Assembly: GCF_025362475.1 (NCBI RefSeq)
Contig: NZ_JANYGH010000025.1
Span: 1 to 64,000 of the forward strand
Direction: 5' to 3'
Length of the DNA: 64,000 nt
From: Mucilaginibacter sp.
GTDB taxonomy: Bacteria; Bacteroidota; Bacteroidia; Sphingobacteriales; Sphingobacteriaceae
Translations under genes and position numbers: made by a program
The notes under the pieces: generated by a model
Seen by the model: only the letters and a program-made list of their open reading frames with translations
Database searches by the model: none
Told to the model about the DNA's origin: nothing
Shown: positions 7,626 to 60,012 of the stretch, piece by piece
How the letters are laid out: each line of letters begins with the position of its first letter
How positions within the stretch are numbered: position 1 is the first letter of the stretch

Positions 7626-7656
7626 GATAGGTGCCGTAAACTCCCGTTCTTCCCCA

Positions 7657-7855
7657 CGTCGTTGCGAACGAAATCCAGGGACTCTGAAGGAGAATTGACG
7701 ATTTAAAAAGTTTGTCATCCTGAACGAAGTGAAGGATCTAATCGCAGGCTGTACAGGGCGAAGAGTATGGCGGATAACAGATCCTTCACTGCGTTCAGGA
7801 TGACAAAAAGTTTTTCTGCGAACCTGTCATTGCTTCGTACCTCGACGTGTTTAAT
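7657..7855. repeat. Composite interspersed palindromic repeat, copy A
   Basis: The inner palindrome has its left arm at 7711-7740 (TTTGTCATCCTGAACGAAG...) and its right arm at 7779-7807, with about one mismatch over 29 bp. The loop contains CTGTACAGGGCGAAG. Outer sequence at 7657-7700 (GTTGCGAACG..., CTGAAGGAGAA) and 7826-7855 (CATTGCTTCGTACCTCGACG) matches the outer arms of copy F near 39.1-39.4 kb in degenerate form. It fills the spacer between two convergent genes. Confidence 0.85.
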
Positions 7856-7863
7856 TTGGACCC

Positions 7864-8574
7864 TCAAAACACCCTTTTATTAATCACCGCCATAAACCCA
7901 TCCTTAAACTTTTCACTTACCGGGATGCGCTTATCGCCTATAAAAATATGATTATCCTGTATTTTTATCAGTTGTTTGGTGTTTACGATATAGGAGTTGT
8001 GGACCCGCACAAAGGGTGGCAACAGTTGCTCTTCAATGTCTTTTAAGCGGCGGTAAATCAGCAATTGCTCCTGCGCGGTAACCAGTCTTACATACTCCTT
8101 TTCGCCTTCAAAATAGAGGATGTCATCAAGCAATATCTTACGCAGCTCCTTGCCCGATTTTACAAAGAAGTATTCCTGGTTTGGCGCAGACGGTTCGGTT
8201 GCAACATGCCCCGGCTTGTCAAAATAATGTTCTATCTTTTGCATCGCTGCCAAAAAGCGTTTAAGGGTTATAGGCTTTAGCAGGTAATCTATTGTTTGAA
8301 AGGAATAGCTTTCGGCGGCGTACTCTGAGTACGCTGTTGTAAACACAATTTTGGTTTGTGACGGCAACAGGCCGGCCAGTTCCATGCCGGTAAGGTTAGG
8401 CATATTGATATCCAAGAATATAAAATCAACCTTGTTGCCCTTTAAAAATGCCAGTGCTTCCAAAGCATTGTAGCACTTGGCTTTTAGTTGCCAGGGAGTG
8501 CTTTGCTGTATTAGCATTTCCAGCAGGTTTACCGCATTGGGCTCATCATCTATTATAATACAGCTTAAACTCAT
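7864..8574 (-). CDS. LytTR-family response regulator
   Basis: A 236-aa cytosolic response regulator. The receiver domain (residues 1-120) has the acidic pair in IIIDDEP and the phospho-acceptor Asp55 in FIFLDINMP, with the conserved Lys in LLKPIT. The C-terminal LytTR DNA-binding domain (about 135-236) carries FEGEKEYVRLV and the RVHNSYIVN motif. It overlaps the histidine kinase gene by 4 bp, as usual for a LytS/LytR pair. Target genes are unknown. The divergent secreted protein at 9829 is a candidate by position only. Confidence 0.94.
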   Translation of the reverse strand: MSLSCIIIDDEPNAVNLLEMLIQQSTPWQLKAKCYNALEALAFLKGNKVDFIFLDINMPNLTGMELAGLLPSQTKIVFTTAYSEYAAESYSFQTIDYLLKPITLKRFLAAMQKIEHYFDKPGHVATEPSAPNQEYFFVKSGKELRKILLDDILYFEGEKEYVRLVTAQEQLLIYRRLKDIEEQLLPPFVRVHNSYIVNTKQLIKIQDNHIFIGDKRIPVSEKFKDGFMAVINKRVF

Positions 8575-42686: not shown

Positions 42687-43099
42687 CCGAATAAAAAGCG
42701 GTTCCTTACATGTTGCCGAGTCCAATGTCATCAGGTTAAGCAAACCATTTTGTTCATAAGGATTGAATTTAGGGTAATAACATACTTATAAATTAATAAG
42801 ATTTGATTACGGCTTTAAAGTCGATTTGAATTTTTAAAATCTCTAAAATGTAAAAAATGGTATTAGGTGTTCGATCGGAATCCGCCCCCTCTCCGCTGAG
42901 AACGTTAACAAAAGCATCAAAAAGTCTTTTAATTCCACATTAAAGGGCTTTTCTATTTTCCATTCCATAAAAAATCGCATAAAAACCAAGCCTTTTCTGT
43001 CACGGGCTTTTGGGCTCAAAAGAGGGTGGCAAATAATGTTGGCTAAAGGAGTTGTTGGCTTTTGATAAAAACAATATCTTCCTCCTTTTAAAAAAGCCA
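42687..43099. other. Gene-free spacer
   Basis: About 410 bp. An open frame on the minus strand (42843-43100) has no recognisable motif and overlaps the acyltransferase start. I see no promoter match or hairpin worth reporting. Confidence 0.5.
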
Positions 43100-44173
43100 A
43101 TGACTGTTGTTAAACCTCCTAGAAATTACGGCATAGACCTATTACGTGTTATTGCCTGTTACATGGTAATGCAGATACATACCGGTGAATTTTATTATAT
43201 AGGACCGACCGGCAATGTTTTAAATACGCCAGACGCGCATATTGTAGGTTGGTACAACTCGTTTTTTCGTATCTGCGTTCCTTTGTTTGTGTTGATCTCG
43301 GGATTTTTCCTTTTTCCGGTTGGTGATACACAAACATTTTTAAAAAAGAGGTTAAGCAGGGTAGTTGTACCTTTTGTTCTTTGGTGCATACTATATGCGT
43401 TCTATTATCACTTTACTGCAGGTGCTGATTTGAAAACAACAATGATCCATATCTTGCATATTCCGGTGAACTACGGCGTTGAGATTGGGCACCTGTGGTT
43501 TGTCTATATGTTGATCGGCATTTACTTATTCGCACCTATATTATCGCCGTGGATAGAAAAAGCCGATCGAAGGGGGATGGAACTTTATTTGGTAATATGG
43601 GCGATTGCCTTAAGCCTACCATTTATTCACTTAATATTTCCCGAAGTGTTAGGCGAATGTGCCTGGAACCGTACGCCATTGCTTTATTACTTTTCGGGCT
43701 TGCTTGGCTATGTGATTTTGGCCAGCTACATTAAAAAATTTCATATGGCGCCCAAACCATTGGACCTCCCTTTAGGAATAGTGCTGATTATCATCGGTTA
43801 CGCCATCACTGCATTGGTATTTGAGCAACGTTTAGGTACCGAGAAAATGGTTAGTACCCTCGAGCTTTCCTGGGGATTTGATACGATTAATGTAGCGATG
43901 ATGACGGCAGGAGCGATCCTTATTTTTAAAAATATTAGCTTTAAAAACACAAACTCTTTTTTTGTACGACTCATCGCCGGCATTTCTTCCATTAGTTATG
44001 GAATTTATTTGGCGCATATAATGGTGCTCAATATTTATTACCATTTACTCAACCAATATTTTGATACCGCGGCGGTCAAAATCCCGCTAATTGCCTTTTG
44101 TACATTTATTACTACTTGTGTGCTGGTTAAATTACTTTCACTCTTGCCGAAAAGTAAATGGCTTGTAGGATAA
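43100..44173 (+). CDS. Acyltransferase-3 family membrane protein
   Basis: A 357-aa integral membrane acyltransferase (AT3/OafA type) that O-acylates surface glycans or other small molecules. It begins with the family block GIDLLRVIACYMVMQIHTGE, holding a His in the position expected for catalysis, then FFRICVPLFVLISGFFLFP, then about nine hydrophobic helices including GHLWFVYMLIGIYLFAPIL. I choose ATG 43100; an upstream TTG at 43052 would add 16 unlike residues. No C-terminal SGNH domain is present. It stands alone, so the target is unknown. Confidence 0.9.
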   Translation: MTVVKPPRNYGIDLLRVIACYMVMQIHTGEFYYIGPTGNVLNTPDAHIVGWYNSFFRICVPLFVLISGFFLFPVGDTQTFLKKRLSRVVVPFVLWCILYAFYYHFTAGADLKTTMIHILHIPVNYGVEIGHLWFVYMLIGIYLFAPILSPWIEKADRRGMELYLVIWAIALSLPFIHLIFPEVLGECAWNRTPLLYYFSGLLGYVILASYIKKFHMAPKPLDLPLGIVLIIIGYAITALVFEQRLGTEKMVSTLELSWGFDTINVAMMTAGAILIFKNISFKNTNSFFVRLIAGISSISYGIYLAHIMVLNIYYHLLNQYFDTAAVKIPLIAFCTFITTCVLVKLLSLLPKSKWLVG

Positions 44174-47093: not shown

Positions 47094-48824
47094 ATGCCCA
47101 TGAAGATCTTTTCGGAATTGAAAAAAAACTTAAAGAATGATTTTTCGCCTTTAAGATCTGTTAAAATCGCACTCCTCGGCGATACCTCCACACAATTATT
47201 CACCCAGGCGCTCAGGGGCACAGGCTTTGATATGGATTTTGACTTTCTGATATGGGAAGCCGATTTTAACCAGGTAGAACTACAGGTATTCGACCCTAAA
47301 TCCGCACTATATGCTTTTGCTCCCGAAGTGGTTGTCATATTCCATTCTTCGCATCAATTATTAGCCAAATACAATAAACTAAACCCAGCGGAATACGATA
47401 GCCTGGCCCAAAACAGGTTAACATTGATCGGCGATCTCCATAATGCTTTAAATAACAGTCTGAACGCAAAGATCATTTACTATAACTACACCGAAATAAA
47501 TGATGCGGTATTTGGTAATGGTGCCAGCAAAATAGCGTCGTCATTCCTGTTTCAATTGCGGAAACTCAATTATGAATTGATGCACTATGCCATGGGGCAA
47601 GATAATTTTTACATCTGTGATATTTCATCCATACAAAATCAGTTAGGCAAGGCAACCTTTTTCCAGCCACCACTGTATATAAATGCGGAGATGGTGCTAA
47701 GTATAGATGTATTACCCTGGGTGGCCGCCCAAACAGCCGATCTGATTGGGTCTATGTATGGCCGGTTAAAAAAATGCCTGATCCTTGACCTGGATAATAC
47801 CTTGTGGGGCGGTGTAATTGGCGATGACGGAATAGGAAACATCCAACTTGGAAACCTGGGCATAGGCAAAGCATTTACAGCGTTTCAGCACTGGATAAAA
47901 AAGTTAAAAAACCGGGGCGTAATCCTGGCTATCTGCAGTAAAAACACCGAAGCCATCGCCATGGAATCTTTTGAAAAGCATCCGGATATGGTGTTGAGCC
48001 GTGATGATATAGCGATTTTTAAAATTAACTGGGATAACAAAACCGATAATATCAGGCAAATTCAGGCCGAATTAAATATAGGCTTTGACGCTATGGTGTT
48101 TTTGGATGATAATCCTTTTGAAAGAGCTATGGTACGTGAGTGTATACCAAACATTACCGTTCCCGAACTGCCAGAAGATCCGGCAAATTACCTGGAATAC
48201 CTGTATACCCTGAACCTGTTTGAAACCATATCACTTACCAACGAAGATACTGAACGTACAAAGCAGTATCAAAGCGCAGCCAAACGGAATACGGATCAGC
48301 AGCAATATGCTGATGAAGACGCCTTTTTGCAAAGCCTGAACATGGTATCTGTGATAGAACCTTTCAACAGCTTTAATATACCAAGAGTGGCTCAGCTTTC
48401 GCAACGGTCCAACCAGTTCAATTTACGTACGGTGAGGTATACCGAAACCGATATTAAAGCCATTGCAGATTCCATTGATTCCTTTAGCTTTTCGTTTACG
48501 TTAGCCGATAAATTTGGCGATAACGGGCTCATCTGCGCAATCATTTTAAAGAAAGAATCTATAGATACTTTATTCATCGATAACTGGTTTATGAGTTGCC
48601 GGGTGTTAAAAAGGGGCATGGAGCACTTTACCTTAAACACTATTGCAGCTTTTACCAAAGCAAAGGGTTTTAGGTATTTAAAAGGGCAATACCTGCAAAC
48701 CCCCAAAAACGAAATTGTAAAACATCACTACCGGGATTTGGGCTTTGAGCAACATGACGGGCATTGGATACTGGATACCCAAACCTGCATCCCGAAGAAA
48801 AACTACGTGAAAGCCTCCTCATAA
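47094..48824 (+). CDS. FkbH-like HAD-IIIC family protein
   Basis: A 576-aa three-part protein. An N-terminal alpha/beta region (about 1-220, KIALLGDTSTQL) precedes the HAD-IIIC catalytic core, with LILDLDNTLWGGVIGDDG near residue 230, AICSKNTEAI and VFLDDNPFERA. The C-terminal part (about 430-570) is GNAT-like. FkbH enzymes take 1,3-bisphosphoglycerate, remove phosphate and load the glyceryl group onto an acyl carrier protein. The ACP gene begins 21 bp downstream, which fits exactly. It leads a five-gene operon with VOC, MBOAT and SGNH-like genes. Transfer of a glyceryl or derived acyl group to a surface polymer is an inference. Confidence 0.92.
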   Translation: MPMKIFSELKKNLKNDFSPLRSVKIALLGDTSTQLFTQALRGTGFDMDFDFLIWEADFNQVELQVFDPKSALYAFAPEVVVIFHSSHQLLAKYNKLNPAEYDSLAQNRLTLIGDLHNALNNSLNAKIIYYNYTEINDAVFGNGASKIASSFLFQLRKLNYELMHYAMGQDNFYICDISSIQNQLGKATFFQPPLYINAEMVLSIDVLPWVAAQTADLIGSMYGRLKKCLILDLDNTLWGGVIGDDGIGNIQLGNLGIGKAFTAFQHWIKKLKNRGVILAICSKNTEAIAMESFEKHPDMVLSRDDIAIFKINWDNKTDNIRQIQAELNIGFDAMVFLDDNPFERAMVRECIPNITVPELPEDPANYLEYLYTLNLFETISLTNEDTERTKQYQSAAKRNTDQQQYADEDAFLQSLNMVSVIEPFNSFNIPRVAQLSQRSNQFNLRTVRYTETDIKAIADSIDSFSFSFTLADKFGDNGLICAIILKKESIDTLFIDNWFMSCRVLKRGMEHFTLNTIAAFTKAKGFRYLKGQYLQTPKNEIVKHHYRDLGFEQHDGHWILDTQTCIPKKNYVKASS

Positions 48825-48845
48825 ACATAAAACAACCACATACAC

Positions 48846-49088
48846 ATGGATAAAGGCGAAATATTAAAAACCGTAAACGATGTTTTTATTGATGTACTGG
48901 ATGACGAAAACATTATGCTAACTTATGAAACAACCGCAAACGATGTGGAAGAGTGGGATTCTTTAAACCATATCCAGCTGGTAGTGGCCATTGAAAAACA
49001 ATTCGGGATCAGGTTTACCTCATGGGAAATTCAAAGCTGGAACAAAGTTGGCGAACTGATCAACACCATAAGCAATAAGATCAATTAG
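48846..49088 (+). CDS. Acyl carrier protein
   Basis: An 80-aa carrier protein. The 4'-phosphopantetheine attachment site is Ser39 in EEWDSLNHIQLVVAIEKQFG, a standard carrier helix-2 motif. It has the short acidic four-helix size. It is encoded between the FkbH-like loader and the VOC protein (gaps 21 and 6 bp) and is therefore probably a dedicated carrier for the acyl group handled by this operon, separate from fatty-acid ACP. Confidence 0.93.
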   Translation: MDKGEILKTVNDVFIDVLDDENIMLTYETTANDVEEWDSLNHIQLVVAIEKQFGIRFTSWEIQSWNKVGELINTISNKIN

Positions 49089-49094
49089 CAACAT

Positions 49095-49475
49095 ATGAAA
49101 CTTCATCACATAGGGGTAGCCTGCAAAAATATAGCGACGGAGATAAACAGTATCACTAAACTCCATACTGTTACAGCCATAAGCGCCACTGTTTTTGACC
49201 CGGAACAAGATGCCGAGCTGGCTTTACTTACCCTAAGCGATGGAACCCAAATTGAACTGATTGCGGGCAAACAGGTAGAAATAATTGTGAAAAAAAACAT
49301 CAGCTATTATCATTTGTGCTTCGAAGTTGATGATATCTATGCTGAGATTGAGCGGCTGAGCTGCGAGGGGGCGCTATTAGTTTCTCCTCCAAAACCGGCA
49401 ATATTGTTCAACAACCGGGCAGTTGTCTTTTTGCAGGTTTCCTATGGATTAATTGAATTATTAAGCTCAAAATAA
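49095..49475 (+). CDS. VOC-superfamily protein (methylmalonyl-CoA epimerase-like)
   Basis: A 126-aa glyoxalase-fold protein. Four possible metal ligands sit at the usual strand positions: His in KLHHIGVAC (residue 4 or 5), Glu in TQIELIAG (about 56), His in SYYHLCFEV (about 75) and Glu in YGLIELLS (about 122). This resembles methylmalonyl-CoA epimerase. Within the operon it could isomerise or epimerise the ACP-bound or free acyl group. It starts 6 bp after the ACP stop. The reaction is inferred. Confidence 0.82.
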   Translation: MKLHHIGVACKNIATEINSITKLHTVTAISATVFDPEQDAELALLTLSDGTQIELIAGKQVEIIVKKNISYYHLCFEVDDIYAEIERLSCEGALLVSPPKPAILFNNRAVVFLQVSYGLIELLSSK

Positions 49476-49482
49476 TATCGGG

Positions 49483-50931
49483 ATGCTGTTTACCTCCATC
49501 ACATTCGTTATTTTTTTCTGCCTGTTTTTTCTTTTATACTGGTTTGTTTTTAACCGGAACTTTAAATTGCAAAACCTCCTGCTCCTGGCAGGCGGCTATG
49601 TGTTTTATGCCTGGTGGGACTGGCGCTTTCTGCCCCTGCTAATTGCCAGCTCTTCCCTCAACTATTTTTTAGGCATCGGTATATATAAAGCCCGGCAAAC
49701 AAAACAACGTAGCCTGTTGCTTTGGATAGGTTTGCTACAGGGGCTGGGCACCTTGCTTTTTTTTAAGTATTTCAACTTTTTCGTAAAATCTACCATTTCC
49801 GCATTTGCTACGTTTAACATCAGGCTGGATACCTATACGCTCAACATCATATTGCCTCTTGGCATAAGTTTCTATACTTTCCGTACTATAAGTTATTTAC
49901 TGGATATTAAGCATGGCAAAATTAAGCCCACTACAGATTGGGTGGTATTTTTCTGTTATGTGTCCGTTTTCCCGTGTGTTATATCGGGGCCCATTGATCG
50001 CCCTAAAACACTCATCCCCCAGTTAACCCGGCGAAGGGTGTTTGATTACGCCCAGGCAACAGATGGTATGCGCCAGATACTCTGGGGGGTATTCAAAAAA
50101 ATGGTGATTGCTGATAACTGCGCGGTATTTACCGACAATATTTTTGAGCATTACAAAACACTACCGGCCAGCTCTCTCTTATTCGGCGCTTTTCTGTACA
50201 CCATACAAGTTTATGCAGATTTTTCGGGTTACTCAGATATCGCTATTGGTTTATCCAACATCATTGGCATTAAAGTTACCCGTAATTTTAATACACCTTT
50301 TTTTGCCCAAAATATCGCCGATTTTTGGCGGCGCTGGCATATTTCCCTAACGGGCTGGCTTACGGATTATGTTTTTGCCCCGCTTACCATCTATTTCAGA
50401 GACCTGGGAAAAACGGGACTCATACTGGCCATCGTGATCAATTTTACTGCCATCGGGATCTGGCACGGCCCCAACTGGACCTTTTTTCTTTTCGGCTTTT
50501 TAAACGGCTGCTATTACATCCCGCTTATACTGCGCGGGACATTATATAAAAAGAAAAAGATAACAGACCAGCTTCAGCCCGCGTTACCCGCTTTGCTCGG
50601 AGTGGCCGGCACTTTCACCCTGGTCATGTTCACTTTTATTCTCTTCCGTGCCGATAGTTTAGCCCAGGCTTTTGATTATTACCAGAGGCTTTTTTCGCGC
50701 TCTATGTTCACGGCCCCGGTGATTATAGAAAAAGTGAATACCGCCGCAACGCTGGTTTGTATTGTGATCATGTTGGCCGCCGAGTGGCTGCAACGCGATA
50801 AACAGCATGCCTTGCAGATCGATTTTATAAAAAAATCGCCGGTGAGGGTTATCATATACTATGGCTTAATACTTATTATTATCACGTTTACAGCTACCCG
50901 TAACAGCGACTTTATTTACTTTAAATTTTAA
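49483..50931 (+). CDS. MBOAT-family O-acyltransferase (AlgI/DltB-like)
   Basis: A 482-aa multi-pass membrane protein. MBOAT landmarks are the N-terminal block NLLLLAGGYVFYAWWDWRF, the inner-membrane segment FWRRWHISLTGWLTDYVFAPL near residue 285, and the catalytic His in GIWHGPNWTFFLFGF near residue 328. The family moves acyl groups across or onto envelope polymers: AlgI for alginate, DltB for teichoic acid with carrier DltC. It begins 7 bp after the VOC gene, and the SGNH-like gene follows with one base between. Confidence 0.93.
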   Translation: MLFTSITFVIFFCLFFLLYWFVFNRNFKLQNLLLLAGGYVFYAWWDWRFLPLLIASSSLNYFLGIGIYKARQTKQRSLLLWIGLLQGLGTLLFFKYFNFFVKSTISAFATFNIRLDTYTLNIILPLGISFYTFRTISYLLDIKHGKIKPTTDWVVFFCYVSVFPCVISGPIDRPKTLIPQLTRRRVFDYAQATDGMRQILWGVFKKMVIADNCAVFTDNIFEHYKTLPASSLLFGAFLYTIQVYADFSGYSDIAIGLSNIIGIKVTRNFNTPFFAQNIADFWRRWHISLTGWLTDYVFAPLTIYFRDLGKTGLILAIVINFTAIGIWHGPNWTFFLFGFLNGCYYIPLILRGTLYKKKKITDQLQPALPALLGVAGTFTLVMFTFILFRADSLAQAFDYYQRLFSRSMFTAPVIIEKVNTAATLVCIVIMLAAEWLQRDKQHALQIDFIKKSPVRVIIYYGLILIIITFTATRNSDFIYFKF

Positions 50932-50932
50932 C

Positions 50933-51838
50933 ATGAAAAGCACGGTCAAATTCCTGTTTAAAACGCTGCTGTTCGCGCTGCCGGTACTGCTTGTTTTTGA
51001 GGTGCTATTTCGCCTGGGTTACTTTCCTATCATCACCAATTCTACCATTTTCGACCTAAAGATGATCCGTTTGCAAAAGCAGCATATTGAGCGTGTAAAA
51101 GTGATGTCTATTGGTTCTTCGGTAGGTTTGTATGAGTTTAATTCAGACATTATCTTACAAAATCTGCACACATCTTATTATAATTTCGCCTCCTGGGGTT
51201 TGCAGATAGGCGATATACGGACGCTTGTGAAAAGTTTTGCAAAGGATTACCGGCCCCGGTATGTTATCATTGGCTCCTCTATCGGCGATTTTATAGCGCC
51301 GTTAAATGAAACTTATCTCAACTACGTAAATACCGGTACCTATATCAGAAAAAACTTCCCGGAGGTTTTTTATTTTAAAAATTACAACTCCATACACCAG
51401 ATCATTCGCAGAAAACATACCGCTTTTCCCGTTCAGCTTGATAGCTGGGGAGGTGCCCTGCTAACCGTTAAAGCCAAAGACATCAACCGGGAAAAATGGA
51501 ATGAGCATAATATATTCCCCACAAAATATACCGCTTACCAATATCATGAATTGGATAGCCTTGGTATATGGCTCCAGGCACAACATATCAAGCTTATTTT
51601 CGTCCAGGTACCCATCAAGGCATCATATGCCAATACACCGGTATCAAAACAGATATTGCAGCATCATTTTGATCAATGCCAGGCCATTATTGAAAAGCAT
51701 GCAGGCGTTTATCTGAATTACCATAACCCTGCTGTTTTTACTGATAGCCTGTTTTTTGATCAGTATCATCTCCAGGCCGCGGGCGGTAGAGTTTTTACCC
51801 GGCAGCTTGTTGTGGACATTAAAAAAATAATCAAATAA
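50933..51838 (+). CDS. Membrane-anchored SGNH-like protein (DltD/AlgX-like role)
   Basis: A 301-aa protein with one N-terminal membrane segment (about 7-25) and a periplasmic alpha/beta domain. SGNH-type landmarks are VMSIGSSVGLYEFNS near residue 58 (block I Ser), YRPRYVIIGSSIGDF near residue 105, and FFDQYHLQAAGG near residue 273 (Asp-x-x-His, block V). Partners of this kind (DltD, AlgJ/AlgX, PatB) accept or hand over acyl groups from MBOAT proteins. It ends the operon, one base after the MBOAT gene. Whether it transfers or removes the group is not shown. Confidence 0.85.
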   Translation: MKSTVKFLFKTLLFALPVLLVFEVLFRLGYFPIITNSTIFDLKMIRLQKQHIERVKVMSIGSSVGLYEFNSDIILQNLHTSYYNFASWGLQIGDIRTLVKSFAKDYRPRYVIIGSSIGDFIAPLNETYLNYVNTGTYIRKNFPEVFYFKNYNSIHQIIRRKHTAFPVQLDSWGGALLTVKAKDINREKWNEHNIFPTKYTAYQYHELDSLGIWLQAQHIKLIFVQVPIKASYANTPVSKQILQHHFDQCQAIIEKHAGVYLNYHNPAVFTDSLFFDQYHLQAAGGRVFTRQLVVDIKKIIK

Positions 51839-51911: not shown

Positions 51912-52667
51912 TCACACTTCAGCTGTCATTTTTGGACTATTTTCAGCGGTAATATCTGATAAAAGCTTAGGTAAAGTATAATAAAAAGTGGTCCCCTCAC
52001 CAACTGATGATTCTGCCCAGATCCTGCCATTCATTTGCGCTATCATATCACTACAAATACTCATGGCCATTCCCGCTCCTTTTAAAAGGTCACCTGTATC
52101 AGAAAGATTATCCTTTAAATGAAAAAGGTCGTGAAGTTGGGAGTCGGTCATTCCCTTTCCCTGGTCGGTAAAAGCAACCGTTATCCAATTATCGTCTTCG
52201 CTGCACGTTACACCAATTACCCCTCCATCCGGAGAATACTTGGTAGCATTGCTTAAAATATTCCTGTTGATAAACTGGAGCATCTCTTTATGCGCATAAA
52301 CCAGCTGATGCTCCGGAACGATATTGTACAATATAATATGCTTATTAAGCTGATCATAAAGATACAGGCTGTTGGCTTCGTGAAGAAGGTCATGAAGAAG
52401 CAATGGTTCTGTTTTGATTGAAAAATCGAGACTTGTTGATTTTGCCCAATAAAGCAAGCCGTCAAGCAGGTCAATGCTTTTAGATGCAGTATTGCGCAAC
52501 TCTTCAAAAAGTAAATGAACTTCTCCGGCAGATAGCGACTTCCTGGTGTGTTTAATCATATCCGCGGTCATCACCAGGGTGGCGAAAGGCTGCCGCAGAT
52601 CATGAGCCAAAATGGCAATCAGGGTTTTACTGAAATTATCGGATATTTCTAATTCCTTAGTCCTCAT
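51912..52667 (-). CDS. Soluble sensor histidine kinase
   Basis: A 251-aa kinase with no membrane or sensor domain in front. Phospho-His is in LIAILAHDLRQPFATL near residue 20. The HATPase domain has the N box FINRNILSNATKY, the G1 box AFTDQGKGM, and KGAGMAMSICSDMIAQMNG as the G2 box. A missing sensor suggests it is driven by a partner protein. It faces the FkbH operon convergently and is the last gene of the minus-strand signalling island. The start has little before it; an alternative start further up is not apparent. Confidence 0.88.
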   Translation of the reverse strand: MRTKELEISDNFSKTLIAILAHDLRQPFATLVMTADMIKHTRKSLSAGEVHLLFEELRNTASKSIDLLDGLLYWAKSTSLDFSIKTEPLLLHDLLHEANSLYLYDQLNKHIILYNIVPEHQLVYAHKEMLQFINRNILSNATKYSPDGGVIGVTCSEDDNWITVAFTDQGKGMTDSQLHDLFHLKDNLSDTGDLLKGAGMAMSICSDMIAQMNGRIWAESSVGEGTTFYYTLPKLLSDITAENSPKMTAEV

Positions 52668-52848
52668 ATTTTAGCTGATAGTAACATAACCTGGCCCTCA
52701 AATAAGGCGGTTTACCAGCAAAGAAAAACAAGATCATACAACGAAAAAAAAGGTTCGACAGATTGTTTACTACAACCGACGGAATGGTCATTATAGCAGA
52801 CCAGTATTAAAGTATAATTTACGGGGAGAAAACTTTAAAATAAACTAT

Positions 52849-53583
52849 TTACAGCCACTTATGCGCAAACTTCCTAAACTCATCCTTAAATTGTTCTGTT
52901 ACCGGGATGGTCGTTTTTCTGATTTTAATGGTGTTTTTGGTAAGGGCATCTATTTTGTCAACAGCAACAATAAACGAGCGATGTACCCGTATAAAGCCAT
53001 TAGCAGGTAGTTTTTCTTCCATGGCTTTCATCGTGGTAAGGGCCTTTACGTATCCTAAATCGCCTGTTAAATACACTTTAACATAATCTTTAAACCCTTC
53101 CACATATAATATATCCTTTAAATAAATACGTACCATTTCATACTCTACTTTTAAAAAGATAAACTCATTCAACAGGTAGTTTTCTGTAGCAGGGGTTTGT
53201 TTCTCTTTTTCAGTAAAATAAGTTTTTGCTTTGTAGGCTGATTTTAAAAAATCCTCATACACTACCGGTTTAAGCAAATAATCAAGCGCATTTACTTTGT
53301 AACCTTCCAGCGCAAACCTTTCATAACCGCTAATGAAAATGATACGCGGCGCGGCGGCACCGTGTGCAGATTGTAATATCCTGGCAAATTCCATCCCGCT
53401 CATTTCAGGCATATCAATATCCATAAATATAAGCTGAACATCATTTGTTTCCATTGCCGAAAGTGCCTCGGCAGGTGATTGATAGTATGCCAGTAAATTA
53501 AAAAACGGAATTTGATTAACAAACACCCTCAGGTGAGTGATAGCAAATTCGTCATCATCTACAATGATACAATTTATTGACAT
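52849..53583 (-). CDS. LytTR-family response regulator
   Basis: A 244-aa regulator. The receiver domain has IIVDDDEF and the phospho-Asp in LIFMDIDMPEMSG near residue 56, with LLKPVVYE as the Lys motif. The C-terminal LytTR domain shows VEGFKDYVKVYL and RVHRSFIVAVDKI. I choose ATG 53583 (MSINCIIVDDD); a start 6 codons upstream at 53601 is possible. No LytS-type kinase is adjacent; the soluble kinase downstream or the hybrid kinase upstream are candidate partners. Confidence 0.92.
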   Translation of the reverse strand: MSINCIIVDDDEFAITHLRVFVNQIPFFNLLAYYQSPAEALSAMETNDVQLIFMDIDMPEMSGMEFARILQSAHGAAAPRIIFISGYERFALEGYKVNALDYLLKPVVYEDFLKSAYKAKTYFTEKEKQTPATENYLLNEFIFLKVEYEMVRIYLKDILYVEGFKDYVKVYLTGDLGYVKALTTMKAMEEKLPANGFIRVHRSFIVAVDKIDALTKNTIKIRKTTIPVTEQFKDEFRKFAHKWL

Positions 53584-53812
53584 AGGAGAACATTTAAACA
53601 ATAAGGAGTCAACAAAACTAAAACCAACCTTTGATTAAAGATATATAAATATGGTTTTATTTTTGGCGGTCAGTCGCATTATATAATTAAAATTATCTGT
53701 TAGTTTAATATATGATCGACAGTTAAAAGTCTGACTACGCGCTAAGAAATCAAAAGCGTGTATTTTTTACTCAATTATTGCACCGCTTTCCACAATTTGC
53801 GATGCTGCTTTT

Positions 53813-55960
53813 TTACCGTTCAAGTGCAGATACAACCTGTTTAATTAGTTCGGCCTCTGTAAAAGGTTTTTCTAAAATGCCTGTAAAACCTTGCTTTAAG
53901 TATTTTTCTCCTTGCAATGATAGCTCTTCGGCGCTGATGGCAATTACGGGTGGCTTGCTTAACAGGCTTTTTGATTTTTTTATACTTGTTGCCAATTGCT
54001 CTGCACTTGTTTCACGCATACTTAAATCGGCCAGCACAACATTTATGGTTTCTTTGGATAGAATTTCCAGGGCTTCCTTTTCGCCGGATGTCTGGTAAAA
54101 CTTAATGTTCCATTTACTTGTCATCATTTTAAGGAAAGTTAGGCTAAGCTCATTGTCGTCAACCGCTAAAATGCTTAGGCCGTTTAATTTCCACAAGAGG
54201 TTATCCTCAGCATTTTCAATCACTTCGTCTGTACTTTTGTTGTAGGTTATGTAAAAATCAAAAGTGCTTCCGGTACCTTCGTTACTTTCTACGTTAATTT
54301 CGCCATCCTGCAATTGAACAAGCTGCTTACAGATGTAGAGTCCCAAACCGGTGCCTGTTTGCCCCCTGGCCGAATTTGTTTGATAATACTTTGAAAAAAG
54401 CCTTGCCTGCTGCTGTATACTAATGCCAGGACCGGTATCTGTTATTCTTATTTGCAACTTATCGGCACCGTTTATCTCCGTAAGACTTGCGTTCACTTTA
54501 ACACTTCCGGTTTGGGTATATTTTATGGCGTTACTTAGTAAATTGATCATGATTTGTTTAAGCCGGAAGCTATCGCCAAGCACCATGGATACTTTATTAC
54601 CCTCGAAACTGTAATCCAACTCAAGTTTCTTTTTAGCAGCGCTAAATTCCATGCTTTCCAATACTTCTTTCAGTACATGATTCGGATTAAAAGGATCCTT
54701 GTTGATCTTAAATTCACTGGTTTCCATTTTCGCGGCATCGAGCGTGTCATTAAGGGTATGCAACAACATCTCTGACGAAAGCCTGATGGAGCCAAGCATA
54801 TCAATCTGTTTTGCCGAAAGGTTTGAGCGGCTAAAAATGTATAAAAAACCATTTATTGCCGTAAGCGGATTACGCACTTCATGACTCATGTGCAGTAACA
54901 GATCCATTTTTTGCTGCGCCATAGCTACAGACCGCTCATTCTCATGAAGCAGGTAAACTTCGGCACGGTTAAGGTTAATTATAAATATAATAAGCAGGGT
55001 AGCAAACACCAAAACAAGAAAAAGCGAAGAGAGATAAAACTTATTTAATAATGAGGTTGTTTCCCGGTAGTTTTTAAGCGTGTTTTCTTTAAGCTCATTA
55101 ATAAGCCCAGCATTCATGCTGTTTACTTCATTAACAATCCTTTCCAGTTCGCTATTAATGTGCATATTAAGAACAACCATTTGCTTTTGCGTGGTGAATA
55201 ATTTAGAATTACGCCGTTGCAGCTGCTGTAGTTTTTGACTGTATAGATCTTTGTCGCGCCGGGCTATTCCCCTGTTCACAGAGTCAATTATTCTGTCAGT
55301 TCGATTGCGGTTGATGATTGTTAAATTGGATACTCCCGCATTTGCATTTTTGTTGGCAATCGCATCTTTTATCCTGCCAAAAACCCCTCTCTTTTTTACC
55401 TGGGCTTCTTTTTTTACCGTATCGCTGCTTCCCATCCTCTTTCCCTTTTTCCGGTAAACAGTGGTGGAGTATTCGCCCGCACTATCGTTCAAAGTGCTTA
55501 AGCCTGATGCCGCTGTTAAAAGCGAATCAAAACTATGCTTTAAAACATATAGGCTGCCAGAGAGCTTTAGCTTCTTTATGTACAGATATTTAACTTTGGC
55601 ACGCTGCGCCGCTGTTAATTTTGCGGTATCTACATTGTCTTTAAGCAAACTATCAATAAGGGTAAAGGATTCTGAAAGCTTTGTTTTGTAGCCTTTGTCT
55701 TTTAAAGCGTTGGGGGTTAAAAGTGATGCCTGAAAGTCATCCTCGGCTTCATGCAACAACAGTAAAGCCTTTTGTGATTTTGCCTGATCATATTCAAGGT
55801 TTAGTGTGAGCTTTGATAATGCGTTTAGCCGGTTGGATATAGAAGTATTTACGAACAAGGCAATTATTGCAAGGGCGATTGCTAACGCTATAAACGCGAG
55901 CAGGATCTTTCTTGAAATACTTTTAATTTTGGTGGAGGTTGAGTCTTTTTTATAAAACAT
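53813..55960 (-). CDS. Hybrid sensor histidine kinase
   Basis: A 715-aa membrane protein. A first transmembrane helix at about 16-40 and a second at about 311-330 flank a helical extracytoplasmic region. HisKA follows with phospho-His in LLLHMSHEVRNPLTAI, then HATPase (MINLLSNAIKYTQTG, ITDTGPGIS, GTGLGLYICKQL). A C-terminal receiver domain has ILAVDDNELSL and phospho-Asp in VVLADLSMRE, ending GILEKPFTEAELI. Its start overlaps the 3' end of the PAS pseudokinase gene by 11 bp, so the two are likely co-produced and may form one complex. Confidence 0.92.
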   Translation of the reverse strand: MFYKKDSTSTKIKSISRKILLAFIALAIALAIIALFVNTSISNRLNALSKLTLNLEYDQAKSQKALLLLHEAEDDFQASLLTPNALKDKGYKTKLSESFTLIDSLLKDNVDTAKLTAAQRAKVKYLYIKKLKLSGSLYVLKHSFDSLLTAASGLSTLNDSAGEYSTTVYRKKGKRMGSSDTVKKEAQVKKRGVFGRIKDAIANKNANAGVSNLTIINRNRTDRIIDSVNRGIARRDKDLYSQKLQQLQRRNSKLFTTQKQMVVLNMHINSELERIVNEVNSMNAGLINELKENTLKNYRETTSLLNKFYLSSLFLVLVFATLLIIFIINLNRAEVYLLHENERSVAMAQQKMDLLLHMSHEVRNPLTAINGFLYIFSRSNLSAKQIDMLGSIRLSSEMLLHTLNDTLDAAKMETSEFKINKDPFNPNHVLKEVLESMEFSAAKKKLELDYSFEGNKVSMVLGDSFRLKQIMINLLSNAIKYTQTGSVKVNASLTEINGADKLQIRITDTGPGISIQQQARLFSKYYQTNSARGQTGTGLGLYICKQLVQLQDGEINVESNEGTGSTFDFYITYNKSTDEVIENAEDNLLWKLNGLSILAVDDNELSLTFLKMMTSKWNIKFYQTSGEKEALEILSKETINVVLADLSMRETSAEQLATSIKKSKSLLSKPPVIAISAEELSLQGEKYLKQGFTGILEKPFTEAELIKQVVSALER

Positions 55961-57023
55961 TGTATTTGTTTATTCTGATTTCCCAGACAGTAGTATTATA
56001 AGGCTTTTTGTAAGTTAATAATTTGCCGCCATGTTCTTCAAGGATCTTTTCTGCATTAAGTAATCCTGCATTAAATCCATCTGTATTCAAATTGGTGTTA
56101 CCTGGGGTTCCTGGTTTGCCCTCTAAATCATATGACGTTTGCTCATCTGCGATGATCAAACTTTGAAAATAATTTTCGTCGATATTAGAAATAACAATGT
56201 CACCATCCTGTTTACCGGTCAAAACAATGTAATTGATAATACTTACAAAAGCTATCTCCAGTATAAAGCGATCATAAAATATAATTTTATGAAAATCCAG
56301 CTTAAAAAGCAATCGTATATTTTTTTTTGTAAGACGATGCCTTAAACTTTCGTAACGTTTTTTTAAAAAAGATTCGAGTTCAATTAAATCTGGCTGGAAA
56401 CTAAACGCCCCCCTTTCAATTCCGGTACGAAAAAGCGCTGCATTGAGCAGGTTTGTGGCGTGCCCAACATGCAAACCCAAATCGGAAAGTATATTATCAA
56501 ACTGTTTTTTCTCTAAACCCTGGTTGTTATGATAAAGGTTATCAAGCAACGTTCTGATGACTAATAATGGATCACGCACATCCTGCACAATATGGGAAAG
56601 CAGCAGGTTTTTTTCCTCAACGGCATCTTTAAGCCGGTTATTTTCTATTTCCAGCTCATTGATGTTCAAAAAAGTAAATACGGTTAAATTGTCTATCCGG
56701 GTTTCATATATATCGTACCAATAATATGATCCGTCTGCGCAACAAACCTTTGTCTCCAGATGGAAGTACGAGTGCCCGTATTTTTTAGCAATCTCCTGCC
56801 GTTTGTCGCGACTGCAGATGATCTCTTTCCGGTAGTCCTGATCAGGATACGCTTTCTCAAACCAATCTTGTAAACCGTGAAGATTGTAACCGATCTCCGT
56901 TAAAAAGGCATTATTACTGTATAAATAATCATTGCCGGAAGCGGAACTATTAACGATCATAACAGGCATAACCATAATATCCGCAATTTTTAAAAAACTG
57001 TCAGAATTAGTGATATTTTCCAA
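55950..57023 (-). CDS. PAS-domain histidine pseudokinase
   Basis: A 357-aa soluble protein with a PAS-type N-terminus (about 12-125) and a histidine-kinase-like C-terminus. It is a paralogue of the intact kinase at 58921 across its whole length. In that alignment the phospho-His is replaced by Gln147 (HIVQDVRDP, where the paralogue has LTHDIRSP). The two N-box Asn residues are Ser261 and Tyr265, and the DxGxG G1 box reads DEQTS. It therefore probably cannot phosphorylate. Its 3' end overlaps the hybrid kinase gene by 11 bp, suggesting it senses a signal and controls that kinase. Confidence 0.88.
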   Translation of the reverse strand: MENITNSDSFLKIADIMVMPVMIVNSSASGNDYLYSNNAFLTEIGYNLHGLQDWFEKAYPDQDYRKEIICSRDKRQEIAKKYGHSYFHLETKVCCADGSYYWYDIYETRIDNLTVFTFLNINELEIENNRLKDAVEEKNLLLSHIVQDVRDPLLVIRTLLDNLYHNNQGLEKKQFDNILSDLGLHVGHATNLLNAALFRTGIERGAFSFQPDLIELESFLKKRYESLRHRLTKKNIRLLFKLDFHKIIFYDRFILEIAFVSIINYIVLTGKQDGDIVISNIDENYFQSLIIADEQTSYDLEGKPGTPGNTNLNTDGFNAGLLNAEKILEEHGGKLLTYKKPYNTTVWEIRINKYNVL

Positions 57024-57078
57024 GGTAGGTGGATTAAGTAAGCACTATACTATTTCAAAAATAAAAAGGCAATAAGGT

Positions 57079-57270
57079 TCACACTTTAAAAGCCCGCTCT
57101 TGCTCCAACGTCATAATCCGATAACGGGATTTGAGGCACTTAGCGCAAAAAAAACGTTTAACCGGAAGAAAAAAAAACAAATTGCGCCCAACCCAGTTTC
57201 TCGGCATTTTATAATGAAAGGGAGCTGAACACTTACGGCATCGGATAAAGGGTCTATCGTTGTAATTCAT
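57079..57270 (-). CDS. Small zinc-ribbon protein (63 aa)
   Basis: A 63-aa basic protein with two Cys-x-x-Cys pairs, CRKCSAPF near residue 11 and CAKCLKSR near residue 42, which could bind one zinc. The linker between them is aromatic and basic (NWVGRNLFFFLPVKRFF). It is just upstream of the pseudokinase gene on the same strand, 55 bp away. It could bind nucleic acid or a protein partner. I do not recognise a named family. Confidence 0.65.
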   Translation of the reverse strand: MNYNDRPFIRCRKCSAPFHYKMPRNWVGRNLFFFLPVKRFFCAKCLKSRYRIMTLEQERAFKV

Positions 57271-57367
57271 AAAATTCGGTTAACGCCTTTTAAAGGCTAT
57301 TTTATTAAGTGCAAAAAAACTAATTATAAAATTTGGGGGAGTGAATAATCACTACCCACATTTACCC

Positions 57368-57393
57368 GCGATACATCATTGATGATGTATCGC
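57368..57393. repeat. 26-bp near-perfect palindrome
   Basis: GCGATACATCAT-TG-ATGATGTATCGC, 12-bp perfect arms around TG. It lies between the zinc-ribbon gene and the TPR-HTH gene and has no T-run on either side, so it is more likely an operator or structured RNA than a terminator. Confidence 0.7.
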
Positions 57394-57435
57394 CTGTATT
57401 TTAACTTATAAAATTTATTGGGGGCGCCTTTTTTA

Positions 57436-58908
57436 TTAAACATTCGCCATCCAAACATTAATATCAATTGCCGATGGAATGCTTAGCTTCTTCCGTATCC
57501 GGCGCTTTTTACCTTCTACCGAACGAACAGAACTTTGTGTAAAACGGGCAATTTCTTTGGTGTCAAAATTAATCCGCAGTAACACACACATCTCAACTTC
57601 TGCCGCAACCATATGGGGAGCTTTATCAAGTATATTTTGTACAAATTCGGGATCGTACTGATTGAACCTGGTTAAAAAAAGAGGATTATTTTCCATGGCC
57701 AGATGTAAAATTTCACTCAAATCCTCCTTTTTCCTTTTTGCAATATTACTTTCAGTTTCTTTAGTCAGCTTATCTACCGTTGCAACACTAAGGTTCAATT
57801 CTCTCCTTAGCTTACCAGATATAAACAGTGCTGTAAAAACTACTATGCTAAGTATAAGTGATATAGCTGCGATGAGCCAGGCCAACTGCTTTTTATTTTT
57901 ATTGGTTTTTTCGTCCTGTGTTTTAAGGAGGTAAACCAGGGGGGCCTTTGCTGCCGATTTATCAACTATATTCAGGCTATCTGTAAGTGTAGTATACCGC
58001 TCCAGGAAATTGGCGGCTTTATCTGTTTTCTTTAACATGAAATAAACGTTAGCCAGGCCTTTGTAAGCATCCCTTAACTGGTACGCGTTATTTAAACGGG
58101 ATGATACCCCAATATTCAGGGTGTAATAATCTTCGGCCCAGGCATATAGCTTTAGTGTATAATAAAGATCACCAAGTTCTTTGTAAGTAAAGGCACATAC
58201 ATTATCGTCTTTATAATTTTCGGCAAGGGTTGCTGCTTTGTGTAAATAAAACGAGGCTGAGTCAATTTGGTGAAGTTCCAGAAAAATGCTGCCCATGTTA
58301 TAGGTGGCCAGTATATAACCTCTAACATATTTAGCGTTGGTGCTTACATTTTTAAACTCCAGGTAACTTTTTCTGATAAAAAAGAGCGGGTCTTTTGAAT
58401 CCCGGTCTAAACTCTCTTTACATTGACTCAGGCCTGTATAAATGTTCCCTAACCAGTAATGCCGCGAACCTGGATCATTTATCTTTTTTGCAACAACAAT
58501 GGCGCTATTCAACGTTAGCCAGCCCTCCTTATAATAGCCAAGCTTATTGTATATAGTTCCTTTTGCTGTCTGGATCTGTGTAATCAATAAAACATCATGT
58601 ATTTTTTGGGCTGCGCTTTCCGACTCAACAACGTATTTGAAAGCTTCTTCATATCGGCCGGAGTTAAAACAGGCGCCGGTGCGCATCATTAGCCCTTTGG
58701 CTATACCCTCATCATAGTTTATGATTTTAGATGCCTGGTAAATTGCAACCCCTAATTTTTCTTTTTGCTGAATGTCAATTGTTTGGGTAGCTATATTAAG
58801 CATACTGTCAATCTGTTTCTGCCTGTACTGTGCGTAGCTTTTACGCTCAGCCAAAACAAAAACAACACATAATAACCTCGCAATTACCTTCCTGCTCTGC
58901 ACAACCAC
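57436..58908 (-). CDS. Membrane-anchored TPR protein with LuxR-like HTH
   Basis: A 490-aa protein. A hydrophobic N-terminus (about 6-27) may be a signal peptide. TPR-like helical repeats occupy about 30-320 (AFTYKELGDLYYTLKLYAWAEDYY). One transmembrane helix lies at about 343-362 (LAWLIAAISLILSIVVFTAL). The C-terminal part has a helix-turn-helix with FTQSSVRSVEGKKRRIRKKLSI, the LuxR-type recognition region. This layout joins an outside sensor to a cytoplasmic DNA-binding tail, as in Bacteroidota one-component regulators. The upstream kinase gene is 12 bp away on the same strand. Confidence 0.88.
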   Translation of the reverse strand: MVVQSRKVIARLLCVVFVLAERKSYAQYRQKQIDSMLNIATQTIDIQQKEKLGVAIYQASKIINYDEGIAKGLMMRTGACFNSGRYEEAFKYVVESESAAQKIHDVLLITQIQTAKGTIYNKLGYYKEGWLTLNSAIVVAKKINDPGSRHYWLGNIYTGLSQCKESLDRDSKDPLFFIRKSYLEFKNVSTNAKYVRGYILATYNMGSIFLELHQIDSASFYLHKAATLAENYKDDNVCAFTYKELGDLYYTLKLYAWAEDYYTLNIGVSSRLNNAYQLRDAYKGLANVYFMLKKTDKAANFLERYTTLTDSLNIVDKSAAKAPLVYLLKTQDEKTNKNKKQLAWLIAAISLILSIVVFTALFISGKLRRELNLSVATVDKLTKETESNIAKRKKEDLSEILHLAMENNPLFLTRFNQYDPEFVQNILDKAPHMVAAEVEMCVLLRINFDTKEIARFTQSSVRSVEGKKRRIRKKLSIPSAIDINVWMANV

Positions 58909-58920
58909 TAATTAGTTCTA

Positions 58921-60012
58921 TTAATTGTATATCATTATCTCACATGAGGTACCTTTTGCCGGCGTGCTGGAAATAGCCAGTTTACCTCTGTGTTTTTCTA
59001 AGATTTCCTTCGCACTTATAAGGCCTAAACCAAAACCATCAACAATTTCCCGACTGGCGGCTCTTTGATTGGTGTTATGGGCTATAGCATCAATTTGTTT
59101 AGACGTCATTCCTTTTCCCGAATCGGTGATAACCAAACTGGAATATTTTTCATGATGAATCAACGAAATTTTAATTACCCCATTTTTAGGCGTATATTTT
59201 ATAGCATTATCAATAATATTCCTGAAAATGATCTCCAGTATAAACTGATCATAATAAATGATGGCGGGTTCGGGAATTTCAAAAATTAGATTGATCTGAG
59301 CATTGCTAAGCACTTTGCTGAATACGTGCCGGCAACTATCTAAAAAAACATTCAATTTTATTTCCTCAGATCGAAACTTAAACGTACCCCTTTCGCTGCC
59401 AACACGTAACCGGGTAGAATCTATCATATTTAGCAGGTAACCAATCTGATCAATTAATGTCACCGCTACTTCGCAAATTTCATTCTTGTTCAGGTAATTC
59501 ATCTCATAACCATCCAAAATCGACTTTATGTTACCTAAAGGCGATCTGATATCATGCGTGAGGATAGAAAACAATAACGCCTTCTGCTGAATTACATTAA
59601 TCAGTTTTTCGTTTCTCTCTTTTATTCGGTTAATGTTCAGGAAGGTGACCACTTTCACCCGCCCCATAGTTAAACAATAAACTTCTACACAATGAACTTC
59701 GTACCATTTCATGGAGCTATCGGCACAGCGTATTCTTGCTGTTAAACTAAAATGAGGATCGCCTCTTTTTTCGGCCAATGCTTGCTTTGTATTCCAGGCA
59801 AGCATTATTTCTGCCCGGTAGTCAGGGTCGGGATAGGCTGTTAACCACCAGCTTGCCTTGTCAGGGATTGCGTGAATATCGTATCCTATCTCCGCACAGA
59901 AAACCTTGTTTAAATAAAGTGCGCTTGCGCCTGCCCAATCATCAACTATAATAATTGGAGTAATAGCCTGATCCATAGTTTCAAGAAAAGCACTCCTGCT
60001 TAAACCATTCAT
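58921..60012 (-). CDS. PAS-domain sensor histidine kinase
   Basis: A 363-aa soluble kinase. A PAS-type domain (about 15-128, with WYEVHCVEVY) precedes HisKA, with phospho-His153 in LTHDIRSPLGN. The HATPase domain has N265 and N269 in FRNIIDNAIKYTPKNG, the G1 box ITDSGKGM and the G2 box DGFGLGLISAKEIL. All residues needed for activity are present, in contrast to the paralogue at 55950. It is 12 bp upstream of the TPR-HTH gene and heads this part of the minus-strand signalling island. Confidence 0.91.
   Translation of the reverse strand: MNGLSRSAFLETMDQAITPIIIVDDWAGASALYLNKVFCAEIGYDIHAIPDKASWWLTAYPDPDYRAEIMLAWNTKQALAEKRGDPHFSLTARIRCADSSMKWYEVHCVEVYCLTMGRVKVVTFLNINRIKERNEKLINVIQQKALLFSILTHDIRSPLGNIKSILDGYEMNYLNKNEICEVAVTLIDQIGYLLNMIDSTRLRVGSERGTFKFRSEEIKLNVFLDSCRHVFSKVLSNAQINLIFEIPEPAIIYYDQFILEIIFRNIIDNAIKYTPKNGVIKISLIHHEKYSSLVITDSGKGMTSKQIDAIAHNTNQRAASREIVDGFGLGLISAKEILEKHRGKLAISSTPAKGTSCEIMIYN

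Follow-up and report, generated by a model that had tools for sequence, protein, structure and literature searches.

What does an FkbH-like protein do in an operon whose other genes include one for a membrane-bound O-acyltransferase (MBOAT)? This question is raised by five genes of Mucilaginibacter sp. within the 64,000 nucleotides analysed here (positions 1 to 64,000 of contig NZ_JANYGH010000025.1, assembly GCF_025362475.1; hereafter the window), which encode, in this order, an FkbH-like HAD-IIIC protein, an acyl carrier protein (ACP), a VOC protein, an MBOAT and an SGNH-like protein. All five lie on the + strand at 47094-51838, separated by gaps of 21, 6, 7 and 1 bp, preceded by a 200-bp gap and followed by a convergent gene, and the checked coordinates, strand, gaps and families bear out a preliminary description of this DNA that had read them as a single unit. 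Judging from its gene content, the operon probably encodes a carrier-protein-fed MBOAT-SGNH system for acylation of the cell envelope. The gene order, protein families, conserved residues, recurrence of the gene set, exchange of tailoring modules and association of loop-less MBOATs with carrier genes are all directly seen and are described below.

FkbH, carrier and MBOAT genes recur together

The window FkbH protein exceeds the curated cut-off of TIGR01686 (305 bits, cut-off 147) as well as that of FkbH_N (228 bits, cut-off 27) and contains the HAD Asp-x-Asp motif, in which Asp232 and Asp234 are invariant in 12 of 12 aligned sequences, and on both grounds it belongs to the FkbH family; its closest solved protein is BF1531 (3slr). 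The family is known for glyceryl loading (PMC7489565; here and below, papers are cited for the parts of their text that were available). The ACP matches PP-binding at 22.3 bits (cut-off 20.8) and the DltC models at 14.7-17.6 bits and no more, and the phosphopantetheine serine previously ascribed to it is indeed found within a WDSLNH motif that is also seen in relatives.

The gene is sporadic: at E 1e-10, relatives of this FkbH protein were detected in 13 of the 201 genomes surveyed from the family, and at E 1e-80 in 33 of 400 genomes from the order and 19 of 395 from the phylum, each survey counting the source genome. One relative belongs to a Chitinophagaceae metagenome-assembled genome. The surroundings of 54 surveyed relatives, together with the window and a single locus (L029) from a one-protein scan of genome contigs, provided 56 loci, 41 with a close and 15 with a distant FkbH. 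Among the former, an ACP gene was located within 1.2 kb of FkbH in 39 of the 41 loci and within 2 kb in the other two, while an MBOAT gene was located within 5.5 kb in 31 of 41, compared to 1 of 15 loci with a distant FkbH. Co-occurrence elsewhere had been set as a test of the preliminary description, and the genes do co-occur. Within 3 kb of the 41 close FkbH genes there were also VOC genes (9 loci) and MaoC and SDR genes together (11 loci), and 6 of the 41 loci have a class I S-adenosylmethionine-dependent methyltransferase gene; a VOC in L026 and an MBOAT in L017 are encoded on the opposite strand. The recurrence counts are not independent, since the genomes are related and part of these loci served as seeds for the profiles. 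From 95 MBOATs in 60 genomes, the chance that 12 kb picked at random from a 5-Mb genome contain an MBOAT is estimated at about 0.4%, and the FkbH-ACP-MBOAT grouping is not a chance neighbourhood. The exact five-gene order is present in the window and in L064, L065 and L066, with L064 and L066 being nearly identical and the ACP frame of L065 being called too long. The same order with an inserted methyltransferase is found in L051 and L055, as well as, for the genes other than the SGNH-like one, in L164 and L159, which come from a sample not chosen by FkbH. By eye, some cassettes, such as those of L018 and L022, are situated among glycan genes.

Similar sets are found on plasmids beyond the phylum, where 10 of 69 records with an FkbH match were examined. 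On alphaproteobacterial plasmids the parts recur in rearranged form: the order is VOC, MBOAT, a protein annotated as a TonB-dependent receptor, ACP and FkbH on pSymB of S. meliloti ml46, and ACP, FkbH, MBOAT, a hypothetical protein and VOC in Rhodobacteraceae SC52. Both MBOATs end in FXYXXF, and in both sets an SGNH-like protein was called by eye from GSS-type and DxxH stretches, a call to which Pfam and our own profiles lend no support. In ml46 (L103) the protein concerned is the annotated TonB-dependent receptor at 7263-8492, between MBOAT and ACP, which has no family match. FkbH forms one open frame in ml46, whereas pSymB of Sinorhizobium meliloti 1021 (L101, 11206-13268) has it in two overlapping frames. 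In Tistrella, the FkbH, ACP, methyltransferase and MBOAT genes are distributed over both strands, the stretch from Paroceanicella combines ACP, FkbH, methyltransferase and VOC and lacks an annotated MBOAT, and Subdoligranulum has FkbH, ACP, MaoC and SDR. The Methylosinus and Pseudalkalibacillus plasmids have a polyketide-type look, and neither MBOAT nor VOC is annotated in the stretches examined.

Loop-less MBOATs are associated with carrier genes

The window MBOAT scores 61 bits against the MBOAT family (cut-off 27), and its catalytic histidine, as previously predicted, is recognizable as His328, which is invariant in 29 of 29 aligned MBOATs (L001 was left out of a first MBOAT alignment). It is not DltB proper, as it reaches 180 bits against the DltB model TIGR04091 (cut-off 375) and has a C-terminal shuttle of its own. 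This shuttle is the motif FXYXXF, for which acyl transfer has been demonstrated in DltX and PatA (PMC12148441). It terminates 35 of 36 MBOATs near FkbH, the remaining one being cut by a contig end, and reads FIYFKF in the window, as expected for PatA/AlgI-type pairs (the L029 MBOAT, cut by its contig end, was left out of the motif and tree counts). Other MBOAT-SGNH pathways have no carrier (PMC12148441), evidently because they are fed by acyl-coenzyme A (acyl-CoA), and the presence of an ACP gene in the operon argues against such a carrier-free donor.

A second feature distinguishes most FkbH-linked MBOATs from the controls. Following an RRWHISL stretch, a GG[SN] loop is present in 31 of 31 control MBOATs (four of these loops read MGGSR, LGGNK or LGGNR, outside the search pattern, and were counted by eye) compared to 3 of 38 FkbH-linked rows, all three being additional MBOATs in their loci. 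In the window MBOAT, the changed loop covers residues 298-312. The loop is likewise missing from the solved DltB, a carrier-fed enzyme. The first control set was biased, consisting of the best-scoring MBOATs with a fetched locus, one per genome, and therefore we repeated the loop test using all 95 MBOATs of 60 relatives. An ACP gene was found within 5 kb of 0 of 74 MBOATs with the loop and 12 of 21 without it (Fisher 5e-10), although other ACPs may have escaped a profile built from FkbH-type seeds, and some contigs stop short of the 5 kb. With the FkbH-linked MBOATs left out, the figures were 0 of 74 and 3 of 12 (0.002), and among MBOATs unused in finding the loop signature, 0 of 44 and 5 of 14 (exact probability about 4e-4). 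The other nine loop-less MBOATs have no nearby ACP gene, three of them in a single genome (G192). In the MBOAT tree, the window sequence belongs to well supported groups of 2, 3, 8 and 16 rows that are FkbH-linked throughout and in which VOC operons are interspersed with MaoC-SDR ones.

These results bear on whether the MBOAT and SGNH-like proteins could simply be an ordinary acetyl-CoA-fed acetyltransferase, with FkbH, ACP and VOC forming a separate pathway that shares the operon. FXYXXF is common to ordinary MBOAT-SGNH pairs, the three extra MBOATs in FkbH loci do have the GG loop, and an FkbH-ACP-VOC set without an MBOAT exists (L021). However, the genome of L021, G192, holds three MBOATs elsewhere and all are loop-less, while nearby carrier genes were seen for 12 of 21 loop-less MBOATs and for none of the 74 with the loop in the 60 relatives. 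We consider this explanation quite improbable.

Several loci with atypical MBOATs were noted. The three of G192 (L154, L146 and L160) are far from any ACP gene and its FkbH-ACP-VOC set has no adjoining MBOAT, raising the question of whether they are its distant partners. L162 (3864-8174), from a genome of the same taxonomic class, contains a Dlt-like operon without FkbH, in which a ligase-like frame with an ACP part (ligase by eye) precedes an MBOAT of 374 aa, lacking both the shuttle motif and the GG loop, and a further gene. L163 (5900-12535), also without FkbH, encodes a loop-less MBOAT ending in FLYFRF about 3 kb from ACP and ligase-like genes (by eye) and is perhaps a carrier-fed system with another loader. 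L153 has a loop-less MBOAT without FkbH and an ACP gene at the contig end. In L030 and L031, two or three MBOATs, each with SGNH-like frames nearby, stand beside one FkbH, and one MBOAT per locus has the GG loop.

The fifth protein of the operon on its own matched no family above cut-off. The best solved match to a profile of this protein and 17 relatives (18 of 28 candidate frames) was DltD (6o93), a weak match at E 0.0016, followed by acetyltransferases (0.03) and AlgX (0.88), and the Pfam DltD model matches 2 of the 18 members. Gly61, Ser63 and His279 are invariant in the 18 rows, and Asp276 is present in 16.

Proposed tailoring enzymes beside FkbH and ACP

The VOC protein scores 52 bits against Glyoxalase_4 (cut-off 27) and 28 bits against the methylmalonyl-CoA epimerase equivalog TIGR03081, well under the cut-off of 115. 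The four metal-ligand candidates previously pointed out in it (His5, Glu54, His73 and Glu121) are invariant across all 19 FkbH-linked VOC proteins, of which three are alphaproteobacterial, and by analogy we take them to be the ligands. With E values of about 1e-27, the best solved matches to the VOC profile are 2qh0 and 3hdp, named lactoylglutathione lyase / glyoxalase I, ahead of the methylmalonyl-CoA epimerases at 3e-10 at best. The real substrate of these two closest solved relatives may deserve another look.

Our preference for the VOC chemistry is epimerisation of glyceryl-ACP, which would be the simplest fit. Alternatively, the protein may be glyoxalase-I-like and form lactoyl-ACP from methylglyoxal and holo-ACP, or may catalyze some other rearrangement. 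The names of the best solved matches favor this, and the metal ligands fail to separate glyoxalases from epimerases. On the other hand, FkbH would then be redundant, yet none of the VOC cassettes lacks it, the loci having been identified by means of FkbH itself. VOC also accompanies FkbH and ACP in L041, a VOC-FkbH-ACP locus inside an apparent nonulosonic-acid pathway with NeuB, and it does not co-occur with MaoC-SDR, as would be expected of a second tailoring route. A non-epimerase VOC seems unlikely to us on balance, and epimerisation is retained below.

The module beside FkbH and ACP varies, being either absent, VOC, or MaoC plus SDR, sometimes with an added methyltransferase. VOC and MaoC-SDR occur together in 0 of 41 close FkbH loci (hypergeometric 0.041, or 0.011 with the methyltransferase loci joined to VOC), and the four module versions require 13 changes on the FkbH tree compared to 19.9 in shuffles. 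To the preliminary description we can add that VOC is one among several interchangeable tailoring modules. The MaoC proteins have D-x-N-P-x-H in 9 of 11 cases, with Asp and His retained in the other two (by eye), and their nearest solved matches are a 3-hydroxyacyl-thioester dehydratase and R-specific enoyl-CoA hydratases; all 11 SDR proteins have Y-x3-K. In Sinorhizobium sp. RAC02, a MaoC-SDR-ACP fusion stands beside FkbH (MaoC and SDR also by Pfam, the ACP part by our own profile alone), which is itself fused to an Antibiotic_NAT domain, and Niveispirillum has a MaoC-SDR fusion two genes after the start of FkbH-ACP, with a WcbI gene in between. Such fusions suggest that dehydration and reduction act on the group that FkbH loads, and the RAC02 fusion places these modules on the carrier. 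There is a parallel in the bryostatin route, where dehydration of glyceryl-ACP leads to the enol of pyruvyl-ACP and reduction to lactyl-ACP. The RAC02 locus (L109, 6098-11619) has FkbH-Antibiotic_NAT, MaoC-SDR-ACP and DUF4910 genes in a row, with a NeuB-like frame upstream (by eye).

The loaded group might still be something other than glyceryl or its products, for example an acyl group from fatty acid metabolism, with the rest of the system as proposed. Glyceryl is the substrate predicted from the family, and both MaoC and SDR, including the nearest solved MaoC matches, are also of fatty-acid type. Opposing this, FkbH is the sole constant member, glyceryl loading is what its family is known for (PMC7489565), and ketosynthases are absent from the close-FkbH cassettes save for single KASIII calls near L031 and L054. 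We judge this to be rather unlikely and regard glyceryl as the probable loaded unit.

Relationship to known systems

The FkbH-for-DltA architecture proposed for the operon in the preliminary description is well supported by the recurrence of the gene set, the acyl-shuttle motif and the loop signature of the MBOAT. As in Dlt, there is a carrier protein encoded beside the MBOAT, an MBOAT without the GG[SN] loop, a candidate SGNH-like partner and an acyl-Tyr shuttle motif. In contrast to Dlt, FkbH takes the place of the DltA ligase, no AMP-forming ligase is present among the five genes, tailoring enzymes are included, the MBOAT is far under the DltB cut-off, and the acceptor would not be teichoic acid in this type of host. 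The shuttle is fused to the MBOAT C-terminus, as in PatA, whereas Dlt uses a separate DltX, for which the spacers separating the five genes, 21 bp at the longest, are too short. Lacking the ligase, a DltB-level score and DltX, the operon is not a Dlt member. It shares with the PatA-PatB and AlgI-AlgJ pairs an MBOAT gene adjoining an SGNH-like gene and the C-terminal FXYXXF (PMC12148441), and differs from them by its added carrier and loader and by the missing GG[SN] loop. We place it with the MBOAT-SGNH systems as a probable carrier-fed variant that would work like Dlt. Dlt-like loci are also known from Bordetella, although none is described in the literature text available here.

Outside of surface acylation, the glycerate-utilisation and methoxymalonyl-ACP operons of polyketide pathways likewise combine FkbH with a stand-alone ACP and tailor glyceryl-ACP, methylation included (PMC7489565). 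Their remaining genes encode FabH or dehydrogenases and a methyltransferase. They differ from the window operon in that the latter has no FabH-like gene or synthase and that a membrane acyltransferase would take the acyl group. Glyceroyl-type groups do occur on surface sugars, as flagellin of Campylobacter jejuni bears 2,3-di-O-methylglyceroyl pseudaminic acid (PMC3068675). The likeness extends to gene content, with FkbH loci containing VOC, ACP and NeuB (L041) or DUF4910 (RAC02); Cj1295 of C. jejuni is presumably of the DUF4910 type. However, the C. jejuni group is an amide formed on the sugar precursor, whereas transfer by a membrane enzyme would be expected for the window operon. Suomilide-type clusters have FkbH-like glycerate loading and an MBOAT in one cluster, but in these clusters FkbH initiates peptide assembly on a synthetase, the target of the MBOAT is a hexose of the product, and no link between the two is proposed in the available text (PMC13122637). 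Such aeruginosin- or suomilide-type peptides were the sole subject of the literature found on FkbH with MBOAT. Searches combining FkbH, acyl carrier protein, acyltransferase and lipopolysaccharide found nothing, as did those for a gellan glyceryl acyltransferase gene cluster, and no title showing the operon was present among the literature matches listed for the MBOAT-SGNH, glycan, FkbH, Sinorhizobium, Bordetella and HAD-IIIC topics.

Proposed pathway and its significance

The chemistry of the operon is a strong proposal drawn from these analogies. As in other members of its family, FkbH would use 1,3-bisphosphoglycerate to charge the ACP phosphopantetheine with glyceryl. VOC would then alter the ACP-bound group, preferably by epimerisation at the carbon beside the thioester, from D- to L-glyceryl. 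By comparison with Dlt and PatA, the MBOAT, using His328, would pass the acyl group to Tyr479 in the FIYFKF at its own C-terminus, from which it would be transferred to Ser63 of the SGNH-like protein and finally form an ester on an envelope acceptor. This acceptor is most likely a glycan, or possibly a lipid. In the sister operons, MaoC and SDR would convert glyceryl-ACP via pyruvyl-ACP to lactyl-ACP, and the methyltransferase would yield O-methylglyceryl.

A different outcome would be that the operon serves to produce or export a small acylated natural product and leaves the envelope unmodified. FkbH is best known from natural-product clusters, and the Methylosinus and Pseudalkalibacillus plasmids are of polyketide type. 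Yet neither MBOAT nor VOC is annotated in those stretches, envelope polymers are the targets of MBOAT-SGNH pairs (PMC12148441), and no megasynthase-sized frame is present at 40-60 kb of the window, where the longest frame is 715 aa. The earlier statement that no polyketide or peptide synthetase neighbours the operon therefore holds for this interval, and we find a natural-product role very improbable.

Several observations weigh against carrier-fed envelope acylation as we propose it. FkbH and MBOAT act on different parts of the product in the suomilide-type cluster (PMC13122637), and in 10 of the 41 loci with a close FkbH no MBOAT gene was located within 5.5 kb; one of these loci has an acyltransferase-3 (AT3) protein and one is cut by a contig end. 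FXYXXF is unspecific, being present in 28 of 30 control MBOATs (by eye), and six loop-less MBOATs without a nearby ACP are unexplained, so that loop loss alone is no proof of carrier feeding. In the whole MBOAT tree, the FkbH-linked rows do not form one clade, with 8 label changes compared to 23 in shuffles. The SGNH partner is very divergent, since across a first set of eight partners from two subfamilies His279 and Gly284 alone are invariant besides the start, and Asp276 is missing in 2 of the 18 rows of the larger alignment. Its single-sequence structure model failed, with a mean predicted local distance difference test score (pLDDT) of 39.6; the sole confident part is an N-terminal helix, which in this model could anchor the protein. 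For the VOC protein, position 41, which we take to be the second base of epimerases (an acid), is Glu in only 8 of 19 sequences, and therefore epimerisation stays a preference. Lastly, no glycan genes adjoin the window operon.

More tentatively, and with a slightly greater chance of failing than of holding, the operon may represent a widespread unrecognised family in which an MBOAT-SGNH pair (or AT3) is fed with three-carbon hydroxyacyl groups made on a carrier from a glycolytic intermediate. The plug-in would choose the group: glyceryl with none, epimerised glyceryl with VOC, lactyl with MaoC and SDR, and O-methylglyceryl with the methyltransferase, while loss of the GG[SN] loop would mark carrier-fed MBOATs whatever their loader. 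If so, carrier-fed and CoA-fed surface acylation could be distinguished from sequence, and the loop signature would serve as a cheap predictor of donor type. Such a family would link a glycolytic intermediate to surface chemistry, give FkbH a role outside of natural products and suggest an origin for the glyceryl and lactyl substituents of bacterial glycans.

Operon layout and genomic setting

Nine matches to the Por secretion tail point to a host in Bacteroidota. The source genome has one FkbH gene and two MBOAT genes, and the features of the operon are collected in Table 1.

Table 1. Genes of the window operon, with predicted products and identifying features
Product	Position	Strand	Families and residues
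FkbH-like HAD-IIIC protein, proposed glyceryl loader, 576 aa	47094..48824	+	TIGR01686, FkbH_N; Asp232, Asp234
Acyl carrier protein, 80 aa	48846..49088	+	PP-binding; phosphopantetheine Ser in WDSLNH
VOC metalloenzyme, proposed tailoring (epimerase-like), 126 aa	49095..49475	+	Glyoxalase_4; candidate ligands His5, Glu54, His73, Glu121
MBOAT, 482 aa	49483..50931	+	MBOAT family; His328; C-terminal FIYFKF; without GG[SN] loop
SGNH-like, DltD-like protein, 301 aa	50933..51838	+	DltD 6o93 profile match; candidate Ser63, Asp276, His279

Sigma-70-like promoter sites numbered 18 versus 16.9 expected, while TTTG-TAnnTTTG sites, which we take to be the Bacteroidota promoter consensus, numbered 6 in the window versus 4.4 expected, with none upstream of the operon. 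We make no promoter claim for the operon. An AT3 gene is located 3 kb upstream of the operon at 43097-44173 (139 bits), and an AT3 gene is also found in L018, there in the place of the MBOAT. Convergent with the operon, a minus-strand row at 51912-60012 reads as histidine kinases and a response regulator, the first alone having been family-checked.

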